Shown here: positions 3,763 through 51,257 of the stretch, piece by piece
How the letters are laid out: each line of letters starts with the position of its first letter
Numbering within the stretch: the first letter of the stretch is position 1
Assembly: GCA_947642635.1 (NCBI GenBank)
Contig: CANRTI010000002.1
Coordinates: 1-56,764 of the forward strand
Length of the DNA: 56,764 nt
Origin: an uncultured Mycoplasma sp.
GTDB taxonomy: Bacteria > Bacillota_I > Bacilli_A > RF39 > UBA660
Direction of reading: 5' to 3'
Notes under the pieces: model-generated
Databases searched by the model: none
Seen by the model: the letters and a program-made list of their open reading frames with translations, nothing else
Told to the model about the DNA's origin: nothing
Made by a program: the position numbers and the translations under genes

Positions 3763-3807
3763 CTATTTAAAGTATTAACGGATTTTCTATCTTTATACTT
3801 TAAATAG
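3763..3807 (-). repeat. 13-bp inverted repeat between spoIID and spoIIQ
   Basis: CTATTTAAAGTAT (3763-3775) and ATACTTTAAATAG (3795-3807) are perfect complements around a 19-base loop. There is no T-run, so it is not an obvious terminator. One arm abuts the spoIIQ ribosome binding site and the other covers the spoIID stop codon. Confidence 0.7.
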
Positions 3808-4699
3808 AACTAATTTTAACATTTTTATAATAATATTTTAAAATATTTTCATAATTACTACCATTTTTCGCCATTTCATTTGCACCATATTGGCTCATTC
3901 CTACTCCATGACCGTAACCTCTTGTTGTAATATTAACAAAATCACTACCTATATCAATATCAAAATCAGTTGATCTTAAACCAAGTTTCGTTCGAAAAAC
4001 TGTTCCTTTAAAAGTTTTATCATTAACCACTAGCGAATTTACTCGATTTGTCCTACTTCGCTCAATACTTTTTATAACTATCCCACTACAATCTATTTCT
4101 AATTTTGTACAAAATTCTTGTTTGCTAATTTTAGTTTCCACCAAAAAATTTTTATTTTCTCGATCACTTAAGGACTCTACACTTTTTAAATAATCTCGCT
4201 CTTCACTAAAAACTAAACTAACATCTTCTGTATAACCATTACTCATTGCAAAATAATAAGCTTCAACTATTTTATCATTATAAAGCATTACTAACCCTTT
4301 AGTTCCCAAAACAGCTTCTTTTATTTTTTCATAATATTTATTATAATCACTTCCCCATTTCTCTTTCATTTGAGCTACTGTAATATAACTTTGATTAGAA
4401 ACATCTGTTACGACATCATAATCTCCGTTACTAGACTCCATTTTATAATAAGCATAAGTTCTAGAAGCAACTGCTTGAGCTTTTAAAGCTTCAATATTAA
4501 AAGAAGCGGGCATTTCGGCTGCTACTACGCCAACAATATATTCCTCAATATCCATTTTGGAAACATTATTAGTAGATGTATTTTTAACTGCTATTTTAGG
4601 ACTACTATTAAAAAAAGTAGTACTCATTTCATTACTACTTACTAAAATCAACACAATACTTAAAACTATTATTACTAATACAAGTATTCTATTTTGCAT
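3800..4699 (-). CDS. spoIID: SpoIID peptidoglycan lytic transglycosylase
   Basis: 299 residues with an N-terminal membrane anchor (about 5-21). SpoIID degrades septal peptidoglycan during engulfment with SpoIIM and SpoIIP. The catalytic Glu block AAEMPASFNIEALKAQAVASRTYA is intact (Glu62). YYFAMSNGYTED, with the SNG turn, and the C-terminal RGYGHGVGMSQYGANEMAKNG are also intact, so it should be active. Length is close to the Bacillus protein. Start at the ATG 4 nt from a GGAG. SpoIIQ follows downstream, as in Bacillus. Confidence 0.95.
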   Translation of the reverse strand: MQNRILVLVIIVLSIVLILVSSNEMSTTFFNSSPKIAVKNTSTNNVSKMDIEEYIVGVVAAEMPASFNIEALKAQAVASRTYAYYKMESSNGDYDVVTDVSNQSYITVAQMKEKWGSDYNKYYEKIKEAVLGTKGLVMLYNDKIVEAYYFAMSNGYTEDVSLVFSEERDYLKSVESLSDRENKNFLVETKISKQEFCTKLEIDCSGIVIKSIERSRTNRVNSLVVNDKTFKGTVFRTKLGLRSTDFDIDIGSDFVNITTRGYGHGVGMSQYGANEMAKNGSNYENILKYYYKNVKISSI

Positions 4700-16433: not shown

Positions 16434-16457
16434 ACATCATCATTCTAGTTATCTTTT
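16421..16457. terminator. Bidirectional terminator between PBP and noc
   Basis: AAAAGATAACTA (16421-16432) and TAGTTATCTTTT (16446-16457) are perfect complements; each arm contains the stop codon of one of the two convergent genes. Confidence 0.85.
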
Positions 16458-17644
16458 TTTATAATTATAGTATATTTAATTGCATTTTCAGTATCATCTT
16501 CCTCAAAATCAATATTATACTTTTCATTTTTTAAATCTTCTTTTAAATTATTAACTAATGAAATTGCCACAGCCATATCTTTTTTTTCTATTGAACTAGC
16601 ACTTGGAATATCGAAATCTAACATTTCAATTTCTTCTTCCTCTTTTAAAGGTTTTTCTTCTTTTTGAACTTCTTGTTCATCTTTTTCTAAAGAACTATCA
16701 TCTAAGTCTTTTAAATTTTCTTCTTCTAAAATTTCTTTTTTAGATTTTATTTCAGAATTTATGTCATTTCCAATGTTCATATTAGCTTCTTCATATTCTA
16801 AAAAATTAAAAAATTTATTAGGCATTTCATTAGAATTTTCTTTATTAGCTGAAGAACTAGCAATATCTACAATATCTTCCTTTTTAGGTGCTAAAATATC
16901 CGTAGCTTTCTCTCTTATTTCTGCAATATTTGGAGCTAAAGATACTAAAGGTATTTCATCAGTATCTTCTATATCATTATTTTTACTTTTCTTTATTGGT
17001 TCCTCTTTTGGTTTTTCATTCGATACTTTAGTATCTTTTTTATTTGTTATATCTTTAAGACGACGATCTAATTCTTTAACCGTTAATCTTTCTTCTAAAA
17101 TTTTATTTAACCATTCATCTTGCAAATCACTATCTTCAATTTGTAATAAACTTCTAGCATGTCTTTCTGATATTTTTCCAACCATCAAAGCTTCTTGTAC
17201 CTTGTTAGATAAAGATAATAATCTTAATTTATTTGAAATAGCTGATTGACTTAATCCCATTTTTTTAGCCAATTCATCTTGAGTTAAATAACCTTTATCT
17301 AACAACATCTTATATGATTTTGCTTCCTCAATCGAAGATAAATCTTTTCTTTGAACATTTTCAATAATTGCTACTTCCGCACTTTGATTATCAGTAATGG
17401 AAGACACAATAGCAGGAACTGAAGTTAATCCCGCCATTTTGGCAGCTTTATATCTTCTTTCTCCCGCAATTATTTCGTACTTTTCTCCCAATCTGCGCAC
17501 AACAAGCGGCTGAATTATCCCATGCTCTTTTATTGATGCTGCTAATTCTTTTAATGCTGAATCATCAAAATTTAACCGTGGTTGAAAACGATTAGGTAAA
17601 ATATCTTCTATAGGTATGTTTAAAATTTGTGATTCTAAATTCAC
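16445..17644 (-). CDS. noc: Noc-like nucleoid occlusion protein (ParB/Noc family)
   Basis: 399 residues. The N-terminal CTP-binding ParB domain is complete (IIAGERRYKAAK, 58-69; ENVQRKDLS, 95-103), followed by the helix-turn-helix TQDELAKKMGLSQSAISNKLRLL (121-143). Residues known to separate Noc from ParB specificity favour Noc: Gln133, Lys139 and Arg161 (ERHAR) agree, while Ser144 does not. The Noc C-terminal dimer domain is at 357-399. Two oddities: the N-terminal membrane-targeting helix of Bacillus Noc is absent, and a Glu/Lys-rich linker of about 150 residues (201-355) separates HTH and dimer domain. rsmG lies directly upstream, as for Bacillus noc. Matching sites are at 33.0-33.9 kb. 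Confidence 0.85.
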   Translation of the reverse strand: MNLESQILNIPIEDILPNRFQPRLNFDDSALKELAASIKEHGIIQPLVVRRLGEKYEIIAGERRYKAAKMAGLTSVPAIVSSITDNQSAEVAIIENVQRKDLSSIEEAKSYKMLLDKGYLTQDELAKKMGLSQSAISNKLRLLSLSNKVQEALMVGKISERHARSLLQIEDSDLQDEWLNKILEERLTVKELDRRLKDITNKKDTKVSNEKPKEEPIKKSKNNDIEDTDEIPLVSLAPNIAEIREKATDILAPKKEDIVDIASSSANKENSNEMPNKFFNFLEYEEANMNIGNDINSEIKSKKEILEEENLKDLDDSSLEKDEQEVQKEEKPLKEEEEIEMLDFDIPSASSIEKKDMAVAISLVNNLKEDLKNEKYNIDFEEDDTENAIKYTIIIKKDN

Positions 17645-24249: not shown

Positions 24250-25608
24250 ATGAAAACAAAAGAACTATTTCAAGAATTTTTAAAAGAAATAGCCAACTCA
24301 GTTAGTTCAAGTACATATTCAGTATGGTTTAATGATCTTGAACTAGTTAGTATAGAGGACAAAAAAATTACAATTAAAGTACCTCTACCAGTACACAAAC
24401 AAATAATCCGGACTTCATACATGGATTTACTAGATGAAACAATATTTTCTCTAACTGGTATTAATTATGAATTTAAATTAGTTACAGAAGATGAAATTAA
24501 TGAAGTTACGGAAGTTATAAATAATGAAAATATAAATAATAATAATGAACAAACAGTAGAATGGAATACTAATTTAAATCCAAATCTTAACTTCGACAAC
24601 TATGTTGTTGGTGAATCTAATCGATTAGCATTTATTTCGGCTATGAATGTTGCACAATCACCAGGAACTATTCGTAATCCCTTATTTATATATGGTCGAA
24701 GCGGAATAGGTAAAACGCATATTATGCATGCGATTGGTAATTATATTACTGAACATTCCAATAAAAAAGTCTTATATACAACTAGTAATGATTTTCGTGA
24801 TGAATACACTGGCATATCCAAGTTAGAAAAAGGCCAAGCATCACTAGAATATGCTAATAATTTTAAAAATAAATATCGCAATGTGGATGTTTTAATTGTC
24901 GATGATATCCAATTTCTAGTTGGGGCAGAACTTACACAACAAGAATTTTTCCACACATTTGAAGCTCTCCATCAACAGAATAAACAAATAATAATTTCTA
25001 GCGATCGAAGTCCTGATGACCTAAAAAAAATCGAAGAAAGACTTCGAAGTCGATTTACTTGGGGATTACCAGTTGATATCTATCCACCAGACTTTGAACT
25101 TCGTTGTGAAATTATTAAGCAGAAATTAAAAAATACAAGTATAAAAGATAAAGTAAATCGCGATGTCATTGAATATATTGCCAATGCCTGTCCTAATGAT
25201 GTAAGACACATGGAAGGAACCATTAACAGATTATTAGCTTACACAGCTATGATGGCTCCAGATATTATAACCCTTGATTTTGCTATTGAAGCTATAAAAG
25301 ACTATGTAAATATAAATGTTTATCAAGAAAATACTATCTCCCATATTCAAAAAGTAGTGGCGGACTTCTTCAAAATAACGGTGGAAGATTTAAAAAGCAA
25401 GAGAAGATGCAATAATATTGCTAGACCAAGACATATCGCCATGTATTTATGCCGAATAGAAACTGAAGAAAATTTAGCAAAAATTGGTTTAGAATTTGGC
25501 GGACGTGATCATTCAACTGTTGTTGCAAGTTGTGAAAAAATTAAAAATGAATTAAGAAATAACACCACCTTAGATAATATGTTAAAAGAAATTAAATCAA
25601 AGTTATAA
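24250..25608 (+). CDS. dnaA: Chromosomal replication initiator DnaA
   Basis: 452 residues with four domains: I (about 1-80), a short Asn-rich linker II (about 81-110), an AAA+ domain III (about 110-325) with GRSGIGKTH Walker A and VDDIQFL Walker B, and DNA-binding domain IV (about 330-452) ending in the signature FGGRDHSTVVASCEKI. GGGGTGAGG precedes the ATG. Candidate DnaA boxes flank the gene on both sides, as in Bacillus. Confidence 0.99.
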   Translation: MKTKELFQEFLKEIANSVSSSTYSVWFNDLELVSIEDKKITIKVPLPVHKQIIRTSYMDLLDETIFSLTGINYEFKLVTEDEINEVTEVINNENINNNNEQTVEWNTNLNPNLNFDNYVVGESNRLAFISAMNVAQSPGTIRNPLFIYGRSGIGKTHIMHAIGNYITEHSNKKVLYTTSNDFRDEYTGISKLEKGQASLEYANNFKNKYRNVDVLIVDDIQFLVGAELTQQEFFHTFEALHQQNKQIIISSDRSPDDLKKIEERLRSRFTWGLPVDIYPPDFELRCEIIKQKLKNTSIKDKVNRDVIEYIANACPNDVRHMEGTINRLLAYTAMMAPDIITLDFAIEAIKDYVNINVYQENTISHIQKVVADFFKITVEDLKSKRRCNNIARPRHIAMYLCRIETEENLAKIGLEFGGRDHSTVVASCEKIKNELRNNTTLDNMLKEIKSKL

Positions 25609-26949: not shown

Positions 26950-27402
26950 ATGCAAAAACATTTAATTACTAAAAATACTATAGCAATTTTAAAGAATAAA
27001 AAGAAAACAATTATTATTAATGTTGAAAACATTCAAGTTATCAACAAAACTTTAAATACTGTTTTAGAATATAATTGTAATTTTTATGGAAGTAGTTTAC
27101 AAGGAAAGATTAAAAGTGCTAAACAAATATTAGCAAGTAAATATAAAATACCAATTTGCCTTAATTTAGAACAAAATATTATTTTAATACCTTTCAATTC
27201 TATGCGTCAAAATTCTTGTTTATACCTAGTTGCAAATAAAATCTTAGATTATAAAAGTCAAATAAATTATACATTAATAAAATGCTTTAATAACTACGTT
27301 TTTAAAGTCTCAATTTCTCAATATAGTTTAGAAAAATTATTACTTAACACAATTAAATTAAATAATGTTTTAAAATCACGAAAATTAGCAAAATTGCTTT
27401 AA
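26950..27402 (+). CDS. comK: ComK-like competence transcription factor
   Basis: 150 residues, against 192 in Bacillus ComK. The family core is visible: CNFYGSSLQGKIKSAKQIL (43-61; ComK has CRFFGSSYAGR), KIPICLNLEQNIILIPFNSMRQNSC (66-90; ComK has KPPIMVDPSNQIFLFPTLSSTRPQC), and ISQYSLEKLLLNTIKLN (compare ISYNSFENQVYRTAWLR). N- and C-terminal extensions are shortened. ComK activates DNA-uptake genes in Bacillus. It occupies the dnaN-recF interval where most Firmicutes have the small S4 protein YaaA. AGGAGG precedes the ATG. Whether it still controls competence is unknown. Confidence 0.75.
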   Translation: MQKHLITKNTIAILKNKKKTIIINVENIQVINKTLNTVLEYNCNFYGSSLQGKIKSAKQILASKYKIPICLNLEQNIILIPFNSMRQNSCLYLVANKILDYKSQINYTLIKCFNNYVFKVSISQYSLEKLLLNTIKLNNVLKSRKLAKLL

Positions 27403-30509: not shown

Positions 30510-30524
30510 ATGGGAGGTTTTAAT

Positions 30525-32990
30525 ATGGATTATGGAAAAGATAAAATACAAGAAAATAATATTATAGAAGAAATTGAAAAATCATTTTTAGATTATTCAA
30601 TGAGTGTTATAGTTTCTCGTGCTCTACCAGATTTACGTGATGGATTAAAACCAGTTCATAGAAGAATTTTATGGTCAATGTATGAATCAGGATATACCCC
30701 AGATAAACCACATAAAAAATCCGCACGTATTGTTGGAGATGTAATAGGTAAATATCATCCACATGGTGATATAAGTATCTATGATGCAATGGTTCGGATG
30801 GCTCAAGACTTTAGCTATCGTAATGTTCTAGTAGATGGTCATGGCAATTTCGGTAATGTTCGTGGGGATGCTGCTGCTGCTTATCGTTATACAGAAGCAA
30901 GATTATCTAAAATATCTTTAGAATTATTAAGAGATATTAACAAAGATACTGTTAATTTTCTACCAAATTTCGATGAATCGGAAAAAGAACCAGAAATATT
31001 ACCATCACGTTATCCAAATATTTTAGTAAATGGTACAATGGGAATTGCAGTTGGAATGGCAACAAATATTCCTCCTCATAATTTAGGGGAAGTTATTGAT
31101 GGATGTGTTGCTTATATTGATAATCCTGATATTGATGTTGATGGTTTAATGCAATATATTAAAGGACCAGATTTTCCTCTAGGAGCAACCATTCTTGGTA
31201 ATAGTGGTATTAAAAAAGCTTACGAAACAGGACGTGGCAGCATAACTATTCGTAGTAAAGCTACTATTGAAGAAAAAAATGGTAAACAATACATTATTAT
31301 TGATGAAATCCCTTATGGTACTAAAACATCAGATTTAAAAGATAAAGTAGCTGAATTAGTTCATAATAAAATTATTGATGGAATAGCTGATTATCATACA
31401 GATTTAAAAAATGGTGTTAAAATAACTATAACTTTAAAAAGAGATGCAAATCCTCAAGTTGTATTAAATAATTTATACAAGCATACACAATTTCAAACAT
31501 CATATGGCATAATTTTCTTAATGATTGATAATAAAGTTCCAAGAACACTAGGATTAAAGGATATTATTGCCAAATATATTAATTATCAAGAGGAAGTAAT
31601 AATTAGAAGAACGAAATTTGAGTTAGATAAAGCTGAAAAAAGAGTTCATATTTTAGAAGGTTATAAGATTGCTTTAGATAATTTAGATGATTTTATTAAA
31701 ATAATTCGTGAATCAGAAACTGATCAAATTGCTAAAGATAAATTAATAAACAAATATTCTTTAACTGAAATTCAAGCCGATAGTATCCTAGAATTAAAGT
31801 TACGTCGATTAACTGGTCTTGAAAGAGCTAAAATTGAACAAGAATTACAAGATTTAATCTTAAAAATTGCTGAATTAAAAGCTATTTTAGCATCAAGAGA
31901 TAAAATACTTGAAATTATTAAGACAGAATTATTAGAAATCAAAGATAAATATGCCGATGAACGTAAAACTAAAATTGATATGACGGCGATTGAATATATT
32001 GAAGATGAATCTTTAATACCTGAAGAAGATATTGTTGTTGTATTAACTAATAAAGGTTATATCAAACGAACTACAAATGATACATTTAAAGTCCAAAATC
32101 GTGGCGGTGTGGGTGTTAAAGGTTTGACTACTAATGAAGAAGATTATGTTGATAACTTAATTAATCTTTCAACTCATGATTACATAATGTTCTTTACAAA
32201 TAAAGGTAAAGTTTATCGTATTAAAGGATATGAGATACCAGAATTTAGCCGTCAATCAAAAGGAATACCTGTTATTAATTTATTACAAATAGATAAAGAT
32301 GAAAAAATTAATTCAATTGTTACAGTTAATAAAGATGATGATCATAAATATTTATTATTTGCTACTAAACATGGGATTGTTAAAAAAACTAGTCTTTCAG
32401 AATTTGAAAATATTCGTACTTCTGGTAAAATTTGTATTAATTTAAATGATGATGACGAATTAATTGATGTTAAAAAAACTACTGGTGAAAATATTATTTT
32501 AATTGGAAGTGACCATGGTCGAATGGTAAAATTCTCTGAAAATGAAATTCGATCTATGGGAAGAACCGCTACTGGTGTTCGAGGTATTAATCTTGATGGT
32601 GGATTATGTATATGCTGTGAAGTAGTTAACGAAGACGATATAATTCTTTTAGTAACTGAAAAAGGATACGGCAAAAGAACAAAAGTTTGTGAATTCCGTC
32701 AAACAAAACGTGGTAGTAAAGGTGTACTTGCTTTAAATGTAACCGATAAAAATGGTAACCTTGTTGCTGCAAAAGTAGTTCAAGACAATAAAGACGTTAT
32801 TGTTATGACAAATGCTGGAATTACTATTAAATTACCAGTCGATCAAATATCTACATTAGGAAGAGTTACTCAAGGTTTAAGATTAATCTCTTTAAGAGAT
32901 AATCAATTTGTTGCCACAGTAAGTATTGTTGATCAAGTAAAAAATGAAGAAATAATTGAGGAGGATAATTCTTCGAATGATAACACCTAA
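30525..32990 (+). CDS. gyrA: DNA gyrase subunit A
   Basis: 821 residues. The catalytic Tyr is Tyr122 in [10 protein letters not shown]. The C-terminal beta-pinwheel (about 500-805) begins with the GyrA-box relative QNRGGVG, so this is gyrase rather than ParC. The quinolone-determining region reads [15 protein letters not shown]: the position matching E. coli Ser83 is Ile, while the acidic residue at 87 is kept. The ATG at 30525 is chosen because GGGAGG lies six bases upstream. A strong terminator overlaps the stop codon. Confidence 0.98.
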
Positions 32991-33007
32991 TAATAGGTGT
33001 TTTTTTA
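32982..33007 (+). terminator. gyrA terminator
   Basis: AACACCTA/TAGGTGTT stem with a TAAT-type loop and seven T; the 5' arm is the end of gyrA. Confidence 0.9.
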
Positions 33008-33010
33008 TAG

Positions 33011-33036
33011 CCAATTATTTCCCGGGAAATAATTGG
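33011..33036. promoter_or_regulatory. Noc binding site 1
   Basis: Core ATTTCCCGGGAAAT (33017-33030), identical to the core of the Bacillus Noc site, inside a 26-bp perfect palindrome with CCAATT/AATTGG arms. GTTTACATAATA follows. Confidence 0.88.
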
Positions 33037-33070
33037 TTTACATAATATCCAGAGCTATTCAAAAAAATAA

Positions 33071-33128
33071 TGTTGATAAAACATGGGTTAAGCACTAAAA
33101 AGTGTTGAAAATTATATATTGTTGATAA
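33071..33128. other. DnaA-box-like cluster after gyrA
   Basis: TGTTGATAA at 33071-33079 and 33120-33128 (TTATCAACA on the other strand, one mismatch from TTATCCACA), with TGTTGAAAA at 33103-33111 between them. Confidence 0.45.
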
Positions 33129-33189
33129 AATTAAATTTAAATGTTATTATCTTATTTTGAAAAATGTATACAATTCATTCTATTAAAAT

Positions 33190-33203
33190 ATTTCCCGGGA
33201 AAT
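33190..33203. promoter_or_regulatory. Noc binding site 2
   Basis: ATTTCCCGGGAAAT followed by AATTAGTTTACATAATA, the same right flank as the other two Noc sites. Confidence 0.88.
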
Positions 33204-33286
33204 AATTAGTTTACATAATAAATATTATGGAAATGAAATTTAGATTAAGAATTTGAATAAATTTTTGTCATTATTTCAACAATCAA

Positions 33287-33302
33287 TGTTTCACGTGAAA
33301 CA
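33287..33302. promoter_or_regulatory. parS: parS site 1
   Basis: TGTTTCACGTGAAACA, the consensus ParB/Spo0J site, extended to a 24-bp palindrome (33283-33306). Confidence 0.95.
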
Positions 33303-33473
33303 TTGAACACATATTTTAAAAAGCTAATAATATTCTAAATAAACATTAAAATTAAATTTTTGACATAATTTAAAATTCTTTAATTTTGATTTCCTTTAAA
33401 AAAAATTAAAAAAGAACAATATTATATTAAATATAGAATTGATTTACTTACATGTATTCAAAAAAATAAACGA

Positions 33474-33489
33474 TGTTTCACGTGAAACA
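33474..33489. promoter_or_regulatory. parS: parS site 2
   Basis: Perfect TGTTTCACGTGAAACA with palindromic flanks CGA/TCG and beyond. Confidence 0.95.
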
Positions 33490-33640
33490 TCGTTAGGTAA
33501 AAATAAAATAGCGTATTAGTTAAAAATATCATTTAAATTACAGCATATTTTTATGATCGTTTAATTTATTATATCATTAATTAAAAAAAATTTAAATTTG
33601 ATATTATTAAAATTTCTAAAGATTTAAAAATAGTAATCAA

Positions 33641-33656
33641 TGTTTCACGTGAAACA
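33641..33656. promoter_or_regulatory. parS: parS site 3
   Basis: Perfect TGTTTCACGTGAAACA; the flanks are not palindromic beyond the core. Confidence 0.95.
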
Positions 33657-33703
33657 TCATCAAAAAGCAAAAATAATCAATAAATAAAAAAATAATTATT
33701 CAA

Positions 33704-33719
33704 TGTTTCACGTGAAACA
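33704..33719. promoter_or_regulatory. parS: parS site 4
   Basis: Perfect TGTTTCACGTGAAACA with extended ATTCAA/TTGAAT arms, 48 bp from site 3. Confidence 0.95.
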
Positions 33720-33745
33720 TTGAATAAAGTTAAAATTGCCAAAAC

Positions 33746-33784
33746 TCTAGAGAATTGGCAAAAAAATTCTACCAATTCTCTAGA
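33746..33784. repeat. 13-bp perfect inverted repeat
   Basis: TCTAGAGAATTGG (33746-33758) and CCAATTCTCTAGA (33772-33784) around a 13-base loop. No T-run follows, so it is not a typical terminator. Confidence 0.75.
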
Positions 33785-33846
33785 AAATTTGCACTTTTTA
33801 AATAAAATTAATTCAAAAACAGTCAATATTATTTGTGTTAAAAATT

Positions 33847-33860
33847 ATTTCCCGGGAAAT
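33847..33860. promoter_or_regulatory. Noc binding site 3
   Basis: ATTTCCCGGGAAAT followed by AATTAGTTTACATAATA, directly upstream of the SRP RNA promoter. Confidence 0.88.
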
Positions 33861-33884
33861 AATTAGTTTACATAATATTATTTT

Positions 33885-33913
33885 TTGACTTGCGTTAGAT
33901 TGAAGCATATGTT
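33885..33913 (+). promoter_or_regulatory. SRP RNA promoter
   Basis: TTGACT (33885-33890), 17-bp spacer, TATGTT (33908-33913), about 10 bp before the RNA. Confidence 0.65.
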
Positions 33914-33923
33914 ATTATTAATT

Positions 33924-34000
33924 TGCACAACAAATATATTGTAACTTGGTCAGAGTTGGAAGACAGCAGCCACATCAATCCCTATTTGTGTGTGCTTTTT
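33924..34000 (+). ncRNA. ffs: Small signal recognition particle RNA (4.5S type)
   Basis: The conserved Ffh-binding core GGTCAG...GGAAG...CAGCAGCC is present (33949-33971). The ends GCACAACAAAT (from 33925) and ATTTGTGTGTGC (to 33995) pair to close the helix, and a T-run follows. At about 75 nt it is the short single-hairpin form without an Alu domain, unlike the about 270-nt RNA of Bacillus. Its position before tadA-dnaX matches scr in Bacillus. Confidence 0.88.
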
Positions 34001-34014
34001 TAATGGAGATTATT

Positions 34015-49459: not shown

Positions 49460-49538
49460 GACACATAATAGTAAATAATGCGTTTAAAAAACTAACAAAT
49501 GTGGTATAATCTATAATAGGAAGATAAAGGTGGCTATT

Positions 49539-51257
49539 ATGGAAACAAACAATTGGGAGGAAACTGTAAGGAAAAATAGAAATGCTTTAATTGAAAATTA
49601 TGTCGAAGATTATGGCGAAACTACTCGCAATCAAATAACCACAAGTTTTAATTCCATAAAATTTTGTTTTTTTGAAACTCCAAAACTTTTAAAAGAATGT
49701 ATTGATGAAAAGAAACAAAAATTAGGAATAAGATATACGATTGACTTTCTTAAAAGAATTGGTATTGATATTACCCAAATTTATTTGCAAGATGGCACAT
49801 TATCATCTAAAGATCCCAAAGTAGCAGCAATGATGAGTGCGTTTTTTCCTAGTAATGGATACTTGCAACCTGAAGATTTTGAACTAGGAATTTTTAGTTT
49901 TGGGGTTAATAACCAAGAAAATACCGATTACAATAATCTAAAAAAAGCGATTGTTTTACAAAAAATGGGCTATTTAAACGATCGAAGTGATATAAAATTA
50001 TTTATGGCTTCTCCTGAATATGGTCAAATTAATGATTTTATGAGTTCATCTGAAAAACTAATGAGTGAATATAAAGAACAATTTCAAAAAGAATTACAAC
50101 CGTTAGAGGAATATTATCAAAGTCTTACTCAAAAAAGAAAGAAAATTATTGCAGCTCATGAAAGAGATTATATATTTTCTTGCCGCGAATTTATGAGTGC
50201 TATGGATAAAACAAAATTAGAACAAAATCCCGATACCGATTTAGATTCTTTACAAGATATAGCATTAATTTGTGGTGCTGATTTTCAGAGTCATGATGAA
50301 GAAGATGATTTAGAAAATGATGGTCCACTAGCACCTGGATTAATTGAATATTTTTCTAAAAAAAATACTGAAATTTTATTAACTTCAACTGATAATAAAT
50401 TAAAAGCCAAAATAATTGCTAAAAGATTAGAATGTTTAACCCAAATGGGTGTTTCCCCAAGTGAAATAAAAATTACCAATGCAGAGTTATTTACAAAAGA
50501 TTGGTATCAAATACCAAGTATAAAAGATAAATTACCAAGTAGCGGAATGGTGGAAAGAATTAGTACGAGACGTCAATCCGAAAAACAAAAGTGTTTAAAT
50601 GAGCTTGCTGATGCTTATGTTCATGGCACATACCAAATTACGGATTTACAAGTACGAGATAGTATTCTTAGAGGAGATAATCTAGCACTAAATGACACCA
50701 TTGTTTTTGCACCGTTAAGTACTAGATATGTATATGCTGATATAGATTTTGATTGTTTGGTTCGGGAAGTAATTGAAACAACTAAAGAAAAGAAACCTAA
50801 TAATAATGAAGCCATGAATGGTGCCAAATATATATATCTTGTTAAAAAAGGAATTTGTTTTTATGTTGAAGCAAATAATCAAGTTATGGGTTTAACTAAT
50901 CAAAATATTAATACTTTAATGAATTGGAAATTATCAACTGAAGCTACAAGAAGAAGACAAGAAAAAGGAATTAGTTTATTTGTTAGCAGTGAAGAAATTA
51001 GTTATCAAGATCCCGTATATAGTAAATTTATGCCTAATTTAGATTTAGTTTTTTCTAAAGAAATGCAACAATTAATTGCTACTTCCCAATTAGTTTCTAC
51101 AACCGCATTACCATTATACAGAATAATATCACAAGAAAGTTTAACAACAATTAATGAAACTATTTTAAGAACCGATGAAGAGGTTAGAGAAACTTTAAAA
51201 TCAATTGGCGAAAGTTTAGTTAAATTAAATAATAATATGGCAGGAATTTCCAAATAA
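49539..51257 (+). CDS. Uncharacterised 572-residue cytoplasmic protein
   Basis: No signal peptide or membrane segment. Helix-rich with a predicted coiled stretch (about 165-205, EKLMSEYKEQFQKELQPLEEYYQSLTQKRKK), an acidic patch (about 250-262, HDEEDDLENDG), a conserved-looking middle (VFAPLSTRYVYADIDFDCLVREVIETTKEK, about 385-415) and a helical C-terminus ending with RTDEEVRETLKSIGESLVKLNNN. No family recognised. TATAAT (49505-49510, TGG extension) and AAAGGTGG precede the ATG. It interrupts the veg-spoVG order found in relatives. It could be a lineage-specific stationary-phase or sporulation protein; that is only guilt by location. Confidence 0.7.
   Translation: METNNWEETVRKNRNALIENYVEDYGETTRNQITTSFNSIKFCFFETPKLLKECIDEKKQKLGIRYTIDFLKRIGIDITQIYLQDGTLSSKDPKVAAMMSAFFPSNGYLQPEDFELGIFSFGVNNQENTDYNNLKKAIVLQKMGYLNDRSDIKLFMASPEYGQINDFMSSSEKLMSEYKEQFQKELQPLEEYYQSLTQKRKKIIAAHERDYIFSCREFMSAMDKTKLEQNPDTDLDSLQDIALICGADFQSHDEEDDLENDGPLAPGLIEYFSKKNTEILLTSTDNKLKAKIIAKRLECLTQMGVSPSEIKITNAELFTKDWYQIPSIKDKLPSSGMVERISTRRQSEKQKCLNELADAYVHGTYQITDLQVRDSILRGDNLALNDTIVFAPLSTRYVYADIDFDCLVREVIETTKEKKPNNNEAMNGAKYIYLVKKGICFYVEANNQVMGLTNQNINTLMNWKLSTEATRRRQEKGISLFVSSEEISYQDPVYSKFMPNLDLVFSKEMQQLIATSQLVSTTALPLYRIISQESLTTINETILRTDEEVRETLKSIGESLVKLNNNMAGISK

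Follow-up and report, generated by a model that had tools for sequence, protein, structure and literature searches.

What is the function of an intergenic block in which binding sites for Noc (NBS) and for ParB (parS) lie interleaved? ParB sorts chromosomes, and its relative Noc normally relies on dispersed chromosomal sites to hold cell division away from the DNA. In the window, by which we mean the whole stretch of 56,764 nucleotides that was analysed, a sequence-only reading had placed three NBS and four parS, in the order N-N-P-P-P-P-N (N, NBS; P, parS), between gyrA and the SRP RNA, and a rescan found every one of them exact. The block is bordered on the left by the intrinsic terminator that closes gyrA (32982..33008, plus strand), an 8-pair stem (AACACCTAATAATAGGTGTT) followed by a T tail, and on the right by a promoter-like TTGACT-17-TATGTT (33885..33913, plus strand; a consensus match only), which precedes the bacterial small SRP RNA (33913..34011, plus strand; Rfam RF00169, 54.1 bits). 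Between these borders, perfect NBS (ATTTCCCGGGAAAT) occupy positions 33017..33030, 33190..33203 and 33847..33860, the third just upstream of the promoter-like site, and perfect parS (TGTTTCACGTGAAACA) occupy positions 33287..33302, 33474..33489, 33641..33656 and 33704..33719. Chance would supply 0.16 NBS with up to two mismatches in the window and 0.03 parS; none of 100 shuffles reached three of the former or four of the latter.

Each NBS is embedded in a near-identical element of 34-36 nucleotides, ATTTCCCGGGAAATAATT(G/A)GTTTACATAAT, which had escaped the sequence-only reading. The three copies (33013-33048, 33186-33221 and 33843-33878) end in GGTTTACATAAT / AGTTTACATAAT. The outer box of this element also follows NBS in three related loci (L018, L073 and L076) and, according to blastn, in a fourth (L020); in yet another (L015), NBS and outer box together make up a 46-bp perfect palindrome (ATTATGTAAACCAATTATTTCCCGGGAAATAATTGGTTTACATAAT). 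Two other identities for the block were considered and dropped: its promoter-like matches, 14 against 11.5 in shuffles, stay at shuffle level, and no plasmid match pointed to a mobile or plasmid origin.

The window is the origin region of the chromosome. The minus strand carries yidC-jag-mnmE-mnmG-rsmG-noc, after which come dnaA (24250..25608, plus strand), dnaN, a ComK-family gene, recF, gyrB, gyrA (30510..32990, plus strand), the array, the SRP RNA, tadA, dnaX and recR; recF, gyrB and gyrA were identified by position and homologs. The distance from dnaA, taken as the origin marker, to the array is 7.4-8.2 kb, and to the perfect parS 7.7-8.1 kb. The ComK-family gene (26950-27402; PF06338, 2.9e-18) keeps its position between dnaN and recF even in two distant loci (L178 and L180), and the dnaN-comK gap holds an NBS in about eleven near relatives, not in the window. 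The same origin region of this small genome contains a SpoIID-family gene (3800-4699; PF08486) and two long open reading frames with no Pfam match (44-1246, 400 aa; 49530-51257, 575 aa).

In the rest of the 1,314,329-base genome, neither a perfect nor a one-mismatch copy of either site was found; the assembly, in 45 contigs, is 94.5% complete, and a further site may lie in the missing ~5%. At two mismatches, one parS-like and four NBS-like strings appear elsewhere, exactly the numbers (1 and 4) given by reversed-pattern controls. Of the two findings that would have spoken against the sequence-only reading, neither was made: the sites are concentrated at the gyrA-SRP RNA gap and not scattered over the genome, and a ParB is indeed encoded elsewhere, beside parA and about 46 kb away.

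Relatives were collected through gyrA and belong to a family of uncultured gut Bacilli, e.g. Candidatus Ventrenecus, Onthousia and Scybalousia. Among 66 gyrA loci, window included, each followed by 1.3 kb or more of sequence, and with sites counted up to one mismatch, 51 have both kinds of site just 3' of gyrA, 11 have parS only, 3 have NBS only and one has neither; permuted palindromes gave no match at any of the 66. The mixed array is therefore a family trait, and the concentration near gyrA, whose conservation in relatives was to count in favour of the sequence-only reading, is kept in 51 of 66 loci. Distances were measured in the window's genome and 12 well-assembled genomes that have dnaA and sites on one contig: the 26 perfect NBS in 13 genomes, the window's included, all lie 7.4-26.5 kb from dnaA, and the 38 perfect parS in 12 genomes, again with the window's, lie at 7.3-23.8 kb, mostly at 7.4-8.9 kb. 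One exceptional genome (G033) has neither site type, and in another (G014) a distance of 98 kb separates two perfect NBS on a contig that lacks dnaA. All these genomes are MAG-type assemblies and related loci are not independent; the scans being exact or near-exact, a degenerate NBS usable by a cell would be missed. Within these bounds, location and specificity are well supported at the sequence level.

The order of the sites differs among relatives, from NNPPPPN through to strict alternation (L050, L051 and L080). When the window's block was compared by blastn with those of relatives whose gyrA identity is mostly 74-85%, 729 matches were obtained with the sites in place (best 6e-15), against 15 weak matches with the sites masked (best 1e-5). 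Masking thus removes nearly all similarity and leaves spacers that are essentially unalignable, so that the sites appear as islands, the pattern expected of selected sites in drifting DNA. One relative (G029:C6:51529-51880) was noticed to carry ten parS with one mismatch each (TGTTTCACGTGGAACA) in tandem, spaced by ~37 bp, and L031 has a similar array. The NBS part is not immutable: 7 of 58 family genomes lack a perfect NBS, while ParB-family genes number at least one in all 58 and at least two in nearly all, showing that the NBS can be lost or diverge. In the wider class, any perfect NBS occurs in 19 of 21 family genomes vs 5 of 138 others; one of those five (G083) has its three NBS packed into 9 kb around parB-noc-rsmG-mnmG-mnmE.

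Two readers for the two kinds of site are at hand, since the genome encodes two ParB/HTH_ParB proteins. One is a 399-aa Noc ortholog (noc, 16445..17644, minus strand) with residues Q173/K179/S184/R201, the motifs GERR and ENVQR, a long linker containing PNKFFNFLEYEEANMN and no N-terminal membrane-targeting extension; its closest PDB matches are the Noc structures 7ng0/7nfu/7ol9, and its TIGR04285 score, 275 bits, is under the cut-off of 315. The other is a 293-aa ParB whose gene immediately follows parA on the window's contig, at position 79.2 kb, outside the window. Likewise, nearly all of the 58 family genomes pair a short ParB-family protein of about 295 aa with a long one of 343-728 aa. 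An unrooted maximum-likelihood tree places the long forms with Bacillus/Geobacillus Noc, apart from all ParB, and the short forms with ParB/Spo0J (support 100/99); on this ground, the idea that NBS binding arose independently was rejected.

Jalal et al. 2020 (PMC7383237) described a four-position code that separates NBS-type from parS-type specificity. In the Noc group, Q173 is found in 49/50 proteins, K179 in 48/50 and R201 in 50/50, the window's copy reading QKSR; in the ParB group, R173 and G or S at 201 are found in 45/45. The ParB of the window's genome has R173 together with Ser201 in place of Gly (RLKS), a serine shared by 9 of the 45 family ParBs and tolerated in parS-specific variants (PMC7383237). 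Because these contact residues fit the published code, sites and readers match up consistently, with the long form predicted to be NBS-type and the short form parS-type. The CTP-binding motif GERR is present in all 95 proteins and ENxQR in 47/50 Noc and 45/45 ParB. The ParA-binding motif LGxGL occurs in 45/45 ParB (LGKGL in the window genome's copy) and in 1/50 Noc.

In Bacillus, the N-terminus of Noc is a membrane-targeting helix, MKHSFSRFFGLGE, whose Geobacillus counterpart is MKHPFSRLFSFGE, both PDB-confirmed, and B. subtilis Noc deprived of this 10-residue anchor is non-functional (PMC4331003, PMC8429893). The N-terminal region that bears the anchor is absent from all 50 family Noc proteins: upstream of the ParB_N domain, the open frames leave room for 7-19 residues in most cases and for as many as 31 in three, and by eye no such stretch looks like an anchor. 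What these proteins have is a linker of 95-477 residues ahead of the C-terminal domain, mostly unalignable and yet studded with short recurrent motifs: [KR]F[FI][NTSDV] in 28/50 linkers vs 1.4 in shuffles, IxxxAxDI in 20/50 vs 0.8 and ANM[DN] in 13/50 vs 0.3. The motif KFFNF(L)E, frequent in the family, resembles the Noc anchor, the window's NKFFNFLE being close to SRFFGLGE and SRLFSFGE, and a longer anchor-like pattern is found in 16/50 linkers vs 2.1 in shuffles. That the membrane anchor has moved into the linker is a lead rather than a result, since the motif is missing in 22/50 and a pattern match by itself is weak. In another family of the class, the Noc of L177 (G083:C1; L177:10874-12916) has a short N-terminus, MALFNRKDKEE, and a C-terminal extension that is very long and acidic, with GFWNLFK as its last residues; during the evolution of Noc, the anchor may have changed place on more than one occasion.

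The explanation that we consider probable is that the block is an origin-restricted platform with two readers, which loads ParB and Noc clamps on the same DNA. ParB, from the parA-parB operon, would nucleate on the four parS and the Noc ortholog on the three NBS, and both, as clamps, would spread over adjacent origin DNA from one transcription-poor gap; indeed, both readers keep the CTP-binding motifs of sliding clamps and should therefore both spread. The output of ParB would be the usual ParA and probably also SMC. That of Noc would be confined to the origin, most likely tethering or marking it to control division or initiation, and would be exerted through the long linker in place of an N-terminal helix. 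The loading of both clamps on shared DNA had already been suggested by the sequence-only reading, and the presence of one NBS-type and one parS-type paralog speaks for it; the Bacillus-type Noc mechanism that went with that suggestion, a block on division, fares less well. With the N-terminal anchor gone and the sites undispersed, the Bacillus model of whole-nucleoid shielding is not directly transferable. Competition of the two clamps for the sliding track is plausible. Pairs of NBS and parS within 40 bp of each other were observed at 30 loci vs 21.8 expected under random placement, a modest excess from which a tight physical coupling of the clamps does not follow. Fixed spacing or helical phasing of such pairs was also rejected: spacing is constant within some genomes and different between genomes, and its constancy within genomes is attributed to local duplication because the copies share flanks.

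Nucleoid occlusion of the classical type might still operate on a small scale, with origin-bound Noc reaching the membrane via its linker motif and blocking FtsZ near the origin. Both the likeness of KFFNF(L)E to the confirmed anchors and the excess of the core and longer motifs over shuffles favour it, as does the Noc-dependent division block elicited by a multi-copy NBS plasmid in B. subtilis (PMC4331003). We nevertheless judge it unlikely: the N-terminal anchor without which B. subtilis Noc does not function is missing throughout the family, 22 linkers have no replacement motif, and with sites at the origin only, most of the nucleoid would be unprotected. Somewhat improbable, too, is a role in replication control, whereby origin-side Noc would restrain DnaA and the mixed array would time initiation against segregation. 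S. aureus Noc limits initiation and gives small ChIP peaks at dnaA (PMC5540599), and in the present family perfect NBS lie near dnaA and, in the near relatives mentioned above, within the dnaN-comK gap; however, the site scan found no NBS in the window's dnaA promoter or dnaA-dnaN gap, and a contact of Noc with DnaA would be hypothetical.

The Ser201 of the window genome's ParB, at a position where published engineered dual-specificity variants mostly have T or S (PMC7383237), raises the thought that a single ParB reads both NBS and parS. This is very unlikely, since mixed arrays run through the whole family and S201 is the exception among its ParBs, parS-specific variants accept the same residue, and the genome has a dedicated NBS-type paralog; dual specificity was accordingly rejected as the cause of the mixing. 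It is harder still to credit that the array is a by-product of local palindrome duplication or of gyrA/ffs transcriptional regulation, with no role in chromosome biology. Tandem-like units with repeated spacing do exist in the three relatives with alternating sites, two parS also form terminator-like hairpins on the minus strand, and NBS 3 is situated just upstream of the promoter-like site of the SRP RNA; against this, the array sits beyond the gyrA terminator, its sites stay perfect between spacers that cannot be aligned, and its position follows the origin across genera.

The two-reader platform draws on known parts. With the Noc-NBS systems of Bacillus subtilis and Staphylococcus aureus it shares an orthologous protein, the NBS core, the 173/179/201 residues, the CTP motifs and the position of noc next to rsmG-mnmG-mnmE. 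It departs from both in that NBS are interleaved with parS, and that Noc has no N-terminal membrane-targeting helix and carries new short motifs in its linker of 95-477 residues; unlike the 41 loci in the origin-proximal half in S. aureus (PMC5540599; a published figure, not obtained by the same scan), perfect NBS here lie only 7-27 kb from dnaA. As in chromosomal ParABS systems, there are a parA-parB operon, perfect origin-proximal parS, R173 and the LGKGL ParA-binding motif, but the parS share their intergenic block with NBS and the window genome's ParB has Ser201. The orphan ParB-fold clamps KorB and VirB offer a further parallel, that of a CTP-clamp relative without a ParA motif acting locally at its own sites, except that here it is a chromosomal NBS-specific paralog at the origin and not a plasmid regulator. 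No description of mixed NBS/parS arrays was found in the open-access literature searched, and the arrangement is new as far as that literature goes.

Reviews have proposed that Noc arose by the grafting of an amphipathic helix onto a copy of ParB (PMC7333895). It is possible, although we hold it doubtful, that the family preserves an intermediate of that process, reached after duplication, when specificity had switched and new sites had arisen beside parS, and before the helix and dispersal; Noc would then be a second clamp of a centromere-like kind, bound at the origin and bearing in its linker an effector of its own. Secondary loss of the helix is equally compatible with the unrooted tree. 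Noc is usually described as acting through an N-terminal membrane helix and a large number of scattered sites, whereas this family keeps an NBS-type Noc and has dropped both, meaning that these features are separable from NBS-type Noc itself. The order in which specificity switch, anchor grafting and site dispersal took place in Noc evolution thereby becomes testable, and the natural mixed arrays of ParB and Noc sites offer material for studying two CTP clamps on a shared DNA track.
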